DNA from: Chelativorans sp.
Lineage (GTDB): Bacteria; Pseudomonadota; Alphaproteobacteria; Rhizobiales; Rhizobiaceae
Length of the DNA stretch: 64,000 bases
NCBI RefSeq assembly: GCF_031180965.1
Contig: NZ_JAPSLH010000003.1
Coordinates: forward strand, 62,001 to 126,000
Direction: 5' to 3'
Numbering within the stretch: position 1 is the first letter of the stretch; every line of letters starts with the position of its first letter. A program made the translations under genes and the position numbers. The notes under the pieces were generated by a model that saw only the letters and a list, made by a program, of their open reading frames with translations, ran no database searches and was not told the origin of the DNA. Shown one piece after another: positions 47,439-49,555 of the stretch.

Positions 47439-48038
47439 TCAACCGGCCCGATGCCTGCGGGCCTTCTCGCGGTTGCCGCAGGTGCTCATGCTGCACCAGC
47501 GGCGCCGGCCGCCCTTGGATCCGTCGACGAACAGCCAGCCGCAGCGCGGGCAGGCCCGGATGCGCTCTTTGGGCAGGACGAAAAGCGCCTCGAGGGCGAG
47601 CAAGGAGAGCGCGGTTGGGATCGCGCCGGGCTTGCCAAGGCCCTCCGGGGACAGTTCGAGGACGCCGTCTTCGAAGGACAGGCCGTGCTCCAACGCGCCG
47701 GCAGCGGCGGACCGCAGGAGATCTGCAAGGGCTTTCTTCGGCAAGGCCGCGCCTTCGGCCACGGCATTGAACACCGCCCAGGAATCTTCGCGGACCCGGC
47801 GGACGGCAGCGGCGAGGCGCTCGCCGCCGGCCGCGAGCCCGGCTGCCTGCACGGGCGAGACCAGGCCAACCGACTGGCACCAGGCGGCCACATCCGCGCC
47901 GGTCTTGAGAAGCTCGTTGTCGGGCGCCGGTTCGGCCCGATTGAAGAGGGTGTTGGTCAGGTCGAGCGCGGGATGGCCGCCGATGAAGTGCCCCTCTTCC
48001 CATGGGGGAACGGCATGCCGGGTTTCGGCAAGAAGCAT
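47439..48038 (-). CDS. CGNR zinc-finger transcriptional regulator (ABATE domain)
   Basis: This is a 199-residue protein with an N-terminal ABATE domain (HFIGGHPALDLTNTLFNR...) and the C-terminal CGNR zinc finger CPRCGWLFVDGSKGGRRRWCSMSTCGNREKARRHR, whose four cysteines bind zinc. ABATE-CGNR proteins act as one-component regulators of small-molecule metabolism. ATG 48038 is used; TTG 48044 would add two residues. Its own upstream region has the same TAACC/GGTTA pair as the hydrolase, which suggests autoregulation and control of the hydrolase. Confidence 0.88.
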   Translation of the reverse strand: MLLAETRHAVPPWEEGHFIGGHPALDLTNTLFNRAEPAPDNELLKTGADVAAWCQSVGLVSPVQAAGLAAGGERLAAAVRRVREDSWAVFNAVAEGAALPKKALADLLRSAAAGALEHGLSFEDGVLELSPEGLGKPGAIPTALSLLALEALFVLPKERIRACPRCGWLFVDGSKGGRRRWCSMSTCGNREKARRHRAG

Positions 48039-48067
48039 GGGCAAGAACCGCGCAGCAACGGCATCAG

Positions 48068-48095
48068 TAACCGCTTGCAGAGAGATAAGAGGTTA
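48068..48095. promoter_or_regulatory. TAACC-N18-GGTTA site upstream of the CGNR gene
   Basis: Half sites TAACC (48068-48072) and GGTTA (48091-48095) lie 30-57 bases upstream of the CGNR ATG, matching in sequence and almost in spacing the site before the hydrolase. Both also share an inner AGAG...TA...AGGTTAT portion. It is the likely autoregulatory operator. Confidence 0.55.
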
Positions 48096-48218
48096 TAGGC
48101 AGCATTGCCAGGGCCGAGCAGCGATCCGTTCAGGGAAGGACGGCTGATTGCCAGGCCGGTTCGTGCCTGATAAGGACGATCCCTCTCTTTTCACCGCATG
48201 TTGCCCGGGCTTGAACCC

Positions 48219-48245
48219 ATGGAACCGAAGCAATCAGACCGATAG
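48219..48245 (+). CDS. Leader peptide MEPKQSDR of the exporter attenuator
   Basis: An ATG at 48219 opens eight codons (MEPKQSDR) ending at TAG 48245. Its last five residues, K-Q-S-D-R, parallel the K-N-A-D-K end of the cmlA leader peptide (MSTSKNADK) by conservative changes. A perfect 10-base-stem hairpin begins at the base right after the stop. No strong ribosome site precedes it, which is the weak point. Its role would be sensing of amphenicol-like ribosome stalling. Confidence 0.5.
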   Translation: MEPKQSDR

Positions 48246-48342
48246 GCCGCAACAACCGTTGCCTCGTTGTTGCGGCAGTCTGCCCGGCTCCATCTCAATC
48301 ATGACAGCGCAGACCGCCGCCAAATGCCACTCATTTGAGCGG
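48246..48342 (+). promoter_or_regulatory. Probable translational attenuator of the FloR/CmlA-like gene
   Basis: Hairpin 1 is GCCGCAACAA / TTGTTGCGGC (48246-48255 with 48267-48276). Hairpin 2 is CCGC-CAAATG (48317-48326) with CATTTG-A-GCGG (48332-48342), and its 3' arm covers the AGCGGA that serves as ribosome site for the exporter. The GCGGC of hairpin 1's 3' arm (48272-48276) can pair with GCCGC at 48316-48320, the base of hairpin 2, which would free the ribosome site when hairpin 1 is opened by a stalled ribosome. Confidence 0.55.
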
Positions 48343-48352
48343 ATGCTTCGTC

Positions 48353-49555
48353 ATGCCTACTCAGAATCCCCCGCTGTGGACCTACAGCCTGCCGGTCGCC
48401 TTGATGCTTCTGGCCCCCTTCAACATTCTCGCCTCGCTCGGCATGGACATCTACCTGCCGGTGGTCCCCGCCATGCCGGAAGTCCTGGGGACCACGCCGG
48501 CCGTGGTCCAGCTGACCCTCACCCTCTACATGATCATGCTCGGACTGGGGCAGATCGTCTTCGGGCCGCTGTCGGACCGGATCGGCCGCCGTCCGGTCCT
48601 TATCGGCGGCGCGCTGCTTTTCGCACTGGCTTCCTTCGCGCTCGCCGCGACCTCCTCCGCATATCCGTTCCTGATGCTGCGGCTTTTGCAGGCGGTCGGG
48701 GCGTCGGCGACGCTGGTCGCGCTGTTCGCCACCATACGCGACGTCTATGCGGAAAGGCCGGAGAGCACCGTCGTCTACAGCCTCATGAACGCGATGCTGG
48801 CCTTTGTGCCGGCACTCGGCCCCATCGCGGGAGCGCTCATCGCCGGCTCACTGGGCTGGCGCGCCATCTTCGCCGCTCTGGGGCTTCCCGCGCTGATGAT
48901 GCTCGTCTGGGCCTTGCCCGCATGGCATGAGACGCGGCCTGTCAGGGACATGCCGCGCAAGGCGCCGTTCGGCCCGGTATTGAAGAGCCCCGCATTCTGG
49001 ACCTACACACTGGCCTTCGGGGCGGCCATGGGCACGTTCTTCGTGTTCTTCTCCACGGCGCCGCGCGTCCTGATGGAGGGCGCCGGGTTCTCTGAACTCA
49101 GCTTCAGCATGGCCTTTGCGACGGTCGCCTGCGTCATGATCGCCACCACCCGGTTCGCCAAGCTCGCCGTGGAGCGGTGGGGAATTGTCGGAAGCGCGGC
49201 GCGCGGCATGGCGCTCCTGATCTTGGGCGCCTGTGCGCTCCTGTCCGGCGAGGTCCTGCTGGCGCCGTCCTTCTGGTCCTTCGTCCTGCCGATGTGGCTG
49301 ATGGCCGTGGGGATCGTGGTCACCGTCTCCGTCACGGCCAACGGGGCATTGCAGGAGTTCGGGGACATCGCGGGCAGCGCCGTCGCCCTGCATTTCTGCA
49401 TCCAGAGCCTCATCGTCGGCGTCGTCGGCACCGGCTGCGTGCTCACGCTGAATGGCGACACCGCCTGGCCCTTGATCGCCTACTCGGCCGGCATGGCGGC
49501 GATCACGCTCGCGGCGCTGCTGCGGCTTCGCCTTCGCGGCAGGCAGGCTTCGTGA
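48353..49555 (+). CDS. FloR/CmlA-like phenicol-type MFS exporter
   Basis: This is a 400-residue, 12-span major facilitator of the Bcr/CflA (DHA1) type. It is strikingly like FloR: PFNILASLGMDIYLPVVPAMP, YMIMLGLGQIVFGPLSDRIGRRPVL, AFVPALGPIAGALI, GTFFVFFSTAPRVLM, VSVTANGALQEFGDIAGSAVA and LNGDTAWPLIAY all recur with small changes in FloR/CmlA proteins that export florfenicol/chloramphenicol. ATG 48353 lies eight bases after AGCGGA. Unlike classical floR it is in a chromosomal-looking context without mobile genes. Substrate is inferred, not proven. Confidence 0.85.
   Translation: MPTQNPPLWTYSLPVALMLLAPFNILASLGMDIYLPVVPAMPEVLGTTPAVVQLTLTLYMIMLGLGQIVFGPLSDRIGRRPVLIGGALLFALASFALAATSSAYPFLMLRLLQAVGASATLVALFATIRDVYAERPESTVVYSLMNAMLAFVPALGPIAGALIAGSLGWRAIFAALGLPALMMLVWALPAWHETRPVRDMPRKAPFGPVLKSPAFWTYTLAFGAAMGTFFVFFSTAPRVLMEGAGFSELSFSMAFATVACVMIATTRFAKLAVERWGIVGSAARGMALLILGACALLSGEVLLAPSFWSFVLPMWLMAVGIVVTVSVTANGALQEFGDIAGSAVALHFCIQSLIVGVVGTGCVLTLNGDTAWPLIAYSAGMAAITLAALLRLRLRGRQAS

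Follow-up and report, generated by a model that had tools for sequence, protein, structure and literature searches.

The cmlA gene is controlled by a translational attenuator (Stokes and Hall, 1991, known to us through part of PMC8876359). Toeprints of the minimal cmlA leader, KNAD, show the ribosome stopped when Asp8 occupies the P site and Lys9 the A site, according to the consulted portion of PMC11190716, where KNAD already figures as an arrest motif. Extracts of PMC11832420 describe chloramphenicol arrest with Ala at position -1 and, less so, with Ser or Thr, assisted by Asp at position 0 and Lys at -3; arrest hardly occurs with Gly at 0 or +1. A putative attenuator has also been reported for floR, whose mRNA is induced by chloramphenicol or florfenicol (PMC5890775 and PMC8256890, both available in part). 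Both papers state that this stem-loop and the ribosome site of floR do not overlap, and PMC8256890 terms the role of the stem-loop 'unclear'. The cat and ermC attenuators (review table in PMC5418344) share the principle that stalling of a drug-bound ribosome on a short leader uncovers an otherwise hidden ribosome site, but they serve other resistance genes and have other leader peptides.

Here, we analyzed a 64,000-nucleotide stretch of DNA (hereafter the window), which is positions 62001-126000 of contig C48 in a 4.37-Mb draft genome of Chelativorans sp. The following features were located ahead of and within an exporter gene:

48148..48176, plus strand: likely promoter, TTGCCA (48148-48153), a 17-base spacer, an extended -10 TG (48168-48169) and TAAGGA (48171-48176)
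48219..48245, plus strand: leader open reading frame MEPKQSDR, ATG at 48219 and TAG stop at 48243-48245, from sequence and motif statistics
48246..48276, plus strand: stem 1, 48246-48256 with 48266-48276, 11 bp, abutting the leader stop codon
48272..48320, plus strand: alternative (anti-sequestering) helix, 48272-48276 with 48316-48320 and 48278-48283 with 48309-48314
48317..48342, plus strand: hairpin 2, 48317-48326 with 48332-48337 and 48339-48342, one bulged A, covering the exporter ribosome site
48338..48343, plus strand: AGCGGA, putative weak exporter ribosome site, from sequence, 10-15 bases ahead of the start at 48353
48353..49555, plus strand: CmlA/FloR-family phenicol exporter of 400 amino acids (NF033134, 619.6 bits against a cut-off of 450; MFS_1)

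Compared with cmlA, the window has an 8-residue leader, MEPKQSDR, instead of the 9-residue MSTSKNADK (locus L094). The two loci are alike in the K-x-[A/S]-D motif, in a stem abutting the stop codon, in alternate stem-loops and in an exporter of one NCBIfam family. However, the window exporter is about 48% identical to CmlA1 over the aligned part, Ser rather than Ala occupies position -1 of the leader, and in cmlA1 a stem of the window type is not predicted over the ribosome site at the aligned place, the downstream pairing being different. The resemblance to floR lies in the leader, MGNSKSADK, and the abutting 11-bp stem of the putative floR attenuator (PMC5890775, PMC8256890). Unlike floR, the window and most of its relatives have a second hairpin that overlaps the ribosome site.

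The leader peptide and its relatives

An earlier reading of the sequence alone had pointed to an 8-codon open reading frame, MEPKQSDR, which is present at 48219-48245. Counting from the stop codon, with the penultimate residue as position 0, its last residues are Lys (48228) at -3, Gln at -2, Ser at -1, Asp (48237-48239) at 0 and Arg at +1. The leader thus ends K-Q-S-D-R and conforms to the K-x-[A/S/T]-D motif, with Ser replacing Ala at -1. Inspection of the sequence in the window genome revealed no clear ribosome site belonging to the leader. Since promoter-like elements (TTGCCA and TG-A-TAAGGA) lie upstream, transcription would begin ahead of the leader, with a start expected near 48183. Among 112 distinct leaders, 82 have the pattern TTG-N-TGnTA upstream; in composition shuffles the mean was 0.5 of 112.

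These 112 distinct leader-to-start regions were drawn from 136 exporter loci. Four loci of genus g96 (L087-L090) were excluded from the pattern count and inspected by eye instead; all of the remaining 132 satisfied the wider leader pattern, giving 112 distinct regions and 78 distinct peptides. The pattern was defined by the stop codon and the stem alone, also taking TAC or TAT in place of the stop (2 regions), and the peptide residues played no part in it. Across the 112 distinct regions, the residue at -1 was Ala in 64, Ser in 45 and Thr in 3, and its codon was GCN, TCN or ACN but never CCN. Position 0 was occupied by Asp (98), Thr (7), Arg (3), Val (3) or Ala (1), and position -3 by Lys (88), Pro (14), Glu (7), Val (2) or Leu (1). 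At +1, Arg (50) and Lys (47) together accounted for 97 regions and other residues for 15; Gly was found at neither 0 nor +1 in any of the 112. Ten extra loci obtained with an RNA-model search likewise carried Ala, Ser or Thr at -1. One locus (L054) has a leader without ATG, with a GTG start only.

A quick tree of 98 exporters, 92 of them with a leader peptide, showed that the residue at -1 switches 14 times, always among Ala, Ser and Thr. On the same tree, the residue at -2 switches 20 times over nine residues and that at 0 five times. Judged by sequence, the K-Q-S-D-R ending of the window and the K-x-[A/S/T]-D-[K/R] endings of its relatives match the published chloramphenicol arrest motif. 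What is new here, given the earlier description of KNAD (in the portion of PMC11190716 consulted), is the spread of this motif and its drift among the three residues. A literature search of open-licence papers found none that brought these points together.

The g96 loci carry variant leaders that end in, or extend beyond, S-A-T-R, two of them reading through the stem. In the examples MGKVESATRQP and MSTVESATRSAVNFII, the stop is shifted into or beyond the stem and the S-A-T-R core is kept. Three of the four loci have a different stem, GCCGTAAATTT/AAATTTACGGC.

Two hairpins and an alternative helix

The sequence-only reading had placed a perfect 10-base stem one base past the open reading frame. 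A hairpin is indeed there, but its stem has 11 bp and starts directly after the stop codon. In all 112 distinct regions, no nucleotide separates stem 1 from the stop, the pattern itself permitting a gap of 0 or 1. A second hairpin burying AGCGGA had also been proposed, and this was borne out: hairpin 2 (48317-48342) lies over 48338-48343 and covaries in relatives, and the GCGG of the ribosome site is conserved in their alignment. For covariation, we aligned 105 distinct regions, removing 7 of the 112 with inserts totalling more than 150 nt. In stem 1, 99.4% of cells were paired and 6 of 11 pairs had two-sided changes; in hairpin 2, the corresponding values were 91.9% and 7 of 10. Jointly, 95.9% of 2197 cells were paired and 13 of 21 pairs changed on both sides, and none of 500 shuffles scored as high on any of five measures. 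The conservation and covariation seen in relatives place the observation far beyond chance.

Pairing of GCGGC (48272-48276) with GCCGC (48316-48320) had been suggested as the link between the two hairpins. Both segments are present, and the helix is longer than suggested, adding 48278-48283 with 48309-48314: the five switching pairs, GCGGC/GCCGC, run on past one A/C mismatch into GTCTGC/GCAGAC. Across the 105 relatives, 94.1% of 1100 cells of this alternative helix were paired. Its covariation score and its number of two-sided cells exceeded those of all 500 shuffles, whereas its number of two-sided pairs was reached by 117 of 500. The helix covaries only in its outer part; none of the five switching pairs shows variation on more than one side. 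As these five pairs are constrained by both hairpins, the absence of covariation there neither helps nor hurts the proposed pairing. In four loci (L061, L077, L146 and L157), inserts of about 60 bases lie between stem 1 and hairpin 2, with both hairpins retained; three of these are in Aminobacter-like genomes.

Folding of 48200-48360, proposed as a check for alternative pairings, gave -57.6 kcal/mol; only 2 of 200 dinucleotide shuffles folded as well, and the z score relative to them was -2.81. The third pairing, the alternative helix, can replace both hairpins. An Rfam scan of 47900-48600 returned nothing at gathering score, with two chance-level matches far below it.

The effect of a ribosome parked on the leader was evaluated in a folding model. 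In the unstalled fold of the window, stem 1 had a mean pair probability of 0.964. With the ribosome at the Asp codon, pairing at the base of hairpin 2 dropped from 0.984 to 0.132 and the five switching pairs rose from 0.002 to 0.669. The window ribosome site was still mostly paired in the stalled model, its free probability going from 0.002 to 0.094. Among relatives, the unstalled model gave stem 1 a probability above 0.5 in all 105, and the hairpin 2 base exceeded this value in 84 of 104. With the ribosome at Asp, the alternative pairing rose in 104 of 105 relatives but exceeded 0.5 in only 61 of 105, and the ribosome-site stem stayed above 0.5 in 33. Equilibrium accessibility of the ribosome site gave a less clear signal than pair probabilities. 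Its median went from 0.002 to 0.155 on stalling in 108 regions (the other 4 of the 112, with no recognised ribosome-site word, were skipped), with a gain above 0.1 in 55 and a fall of more than 0.05 in 4. With a control ribosome farther upstream, the median stayed at 0.003.

In mobile floR (L092) and cmlA1 (L094), the folding model did not predict the aligned ribosome-site stem (0.000), and stalling did not open the ribosome site. Hairpin 2 therefore does not explain the control of these two genes. The aligned stem was weak or moderate in L095 (0.16) and L048 (0.71).

The exporter and its distribution

The exporter had been described as FloR/CmlA-like, and this was confirmed by its NF033134 score. 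It is below the curated cut-offs of both FloR proper (NF000219, 535.5 bits against 700) and CmlA proper (NF000509, 370 bits against 875). Its nearest relatives are 82-84% identical, with the leader peptide identical or one residue changed. In the quick tree, the window exporter clusters with those of Chelativorans and Mesorhizobium xinjiangense (support 90, unstarred), and mobile floR falls inside an 11-row set (97, starred) that also contains Rhizobiales and two bins, one of Sphingomonas and one of Kofleriaceae. We also observed a natural mosaic (L211 1470-1670; G660:C1:1942255-1942392), in which the cmlA leader MSTSKNADK precedes a floR-type stem and exporter.

A DNA search detected the leader in 19 of 247 family genomes; one of these, L041, falls within a TetR-type gene and was discarded as a chance match. 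Within the genus, 6 of 16 congeners were found by this search and G007 in addition, giving at least 7 of 16. Of 297 family genomes, 47 had a member of the exporter family; in a class-wide sample of 289 genomes, the only one was the window's own. The pattern recovered the leader and abutting stem upstream of 43 of the 47 family exporters, the other 4 being the g96 variants. From a scan of named genomes, the best 80 of 356 relatives were retained; among these, leader and stem were recognized by pattern in 70 and by eye in 10, two of the latter having the stop codon altered to TAC or TAT. Among the taxa in these best 80 are Hyphomicrobiales, Halomonadaceae and Myxococcota, along with a Xenorhabdus and a Sphingomonas bin.

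Genomes matched by an RNA model built from the alignment numbered 44 of the 297 in the family, 1 of the 289 in the class sample and 13 of the 398 in the phylum sample (the samples overlap). The matches adjoin this exporter, except for two decayed copies, G000:C12 and G122:C9. The former (G000:C12:107695-107826; L002 1501-1632) is a second copy in the window genome, 79% identical and with no exporter alongside; its leader is broken (VERK, then a stop), and it is flanked by a short-chain dehydrogenase gene on one side and an aroQ-like gene on the other. In G122:C9 (L024 1501-1720), the leader region is followed by only about 21 exporter residues, and a whole copy is present on another contig. 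In G169, an insert separates the two halves, and in G282:C7:44361-44503 (L187) an intact-looking leader stands ahead of an exporter with a broken frame.

The sequence-only reading had taken the gene to be native to the chromosome, for which the case proved weak: occurrence in the genus is patchy and the flanks differ. Synteny failed as proof. Within the flank covered, window neighbours adjoin the exporter in 1 of 80 loci (the best 80 of the 356 named relatives). When the flanks of eight loci were compared, those of the window and of seven near relatives, no shared match was found. The unmatched flanks and the 1 of 80 loci together argue that the exporter moves between places. Beside the exporter, at 47439-48044 on the minus strand, lies a CGNR/ABATE-type regulator gene transcribed away from it, present in only 3 of 16 congeners.

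Probable attenuation and its alternatives

The window combines a K-x-A-D-like leader, an openable stem, a structure hiding the ribosome site and an alternative pairing that links them, as in attenuators of the cmlA type. The proposal of a leader-peptide attenuator of the cmlA kind has held up: it is well supported by codon-level conservation, hairpin covariation, modelled refolding on stalling and the arrest published for cmlA (in sources available in part), and the window switch is very probably of this type. When no drug is present, ribosomes would read the 8-codon leader and leave, stem 1 would form, and hairpin 2 would hide the exporter ribosome site. A ribosome with a chloramphenicol-like drug bound would be expected to stall when Asp7 occupies the P site and Arg8 the A site, since its nascent chain then displays K-x-[A/S/T]-D; this stall site is placed by analogy with the published cmlA work. 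A ribosome at the Asp codon (48237-48239) would cover the RNA to about 48252 and so occupy the greater part of the 5' arm in stem 1. The 3' arm, left without its partner, may then extend the GTCTGC/GCAGAC helix into GCGGC/GCCGC, and in the cell the extended helix would break the base of hairpin 2, exposing the ribosome site for production of the exporter. The window is likely to hold a conserved, genome-borne attenuator of the cmlA/floR kind that acts by chloramphenicol-type arrest at Asp7 and would respond to phenicols.

The inducer bears on one alternative, in which the attenuator works but its natural inducer is another peptidyl-transferase-centre drug that stalls in an Ala/Ser/Thr context. 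Linezolid is context-dependent at an overlapping site (extracts of PMC11832420) and stalls in a similar context (part of PMC13410324), and the host bacteria are environmental. However, the consulted text of PMC11832420 names Lys at -3 and Asp at 0 specifically for chloramphenicol, and the downstream gene belongs to the CmlA/FloR family of phenicol exporters; a non-phenicol inducer is unlikely. It is quite unlikely that the leader and hairpins are merely what is left of a former switch, non-regulating in this genome, with the exporter at basal level. The ribosome sites of both leader and exporter are weak, a decayed leader copy without an exporter lies elsewhere in the window genome, and the exporter site is mostly paired even in the stalled fold. 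Against this, all window elements (the A/S/T-D motif, the 11-bp stem, hairpin 2 and the alternative helix) are intact, and the nearest exporters, at 82-84% identity, keep the leader peptide or differ by one residue.

Two further readings concern the stretch itself. A strong G+C-rich stem right behind a stop codon might be an ordinary transcription terminator or attenuator, with the leader frame incidental. As no T run follows stem 1, this reading was rejected; moreover, the last leader codons are constrained as amino acids, and hairpin 2 covers the ribosome site and covaries, all of which makes a terminator very unlikely. The 79% identical copy at G000:C12 lacks an exporter, as a dispersed repeat or the end of a mobile element might, but the genome holds only two copies at E 0.001 or better and this copy has a broken leader. 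That reading was rejected because copies in relatives sit next to exporters, and we regard it as extremely unlikely; the G000:C12 copy reads best as the remnant of a lost exporter locus.

For the attenuator, a broader history can be put forward tentatively. Genome-borne exporters, in Hyphomicrobiales and a few further lineages, may carry the fuller switch, comprising leader, stem 1, alternative helix and ribosome-site hairpin. Mobile floR may have arisen within them, keeping the leader and stem 1 while the ribosome-site hairpin decayed and control became looser or different. Position -1, drifting freely only among the three residues that chloramphenicol tolerates, may then be a natural record of the context rule. 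For floR, the role of whose stem-loop is given as unclear (PMC8256890, in part), the relatives show a further element to seek, though it is not predicted intact in mobile floR. The 78 distinct natural leader peptides can be compared with the context rule known for chloramphenicol. If the window attenuator works as proposed, phenicol-inducible control would not be confined to mobile resistance cassettes but would be tied to a wider exporter family across environmental genomes.
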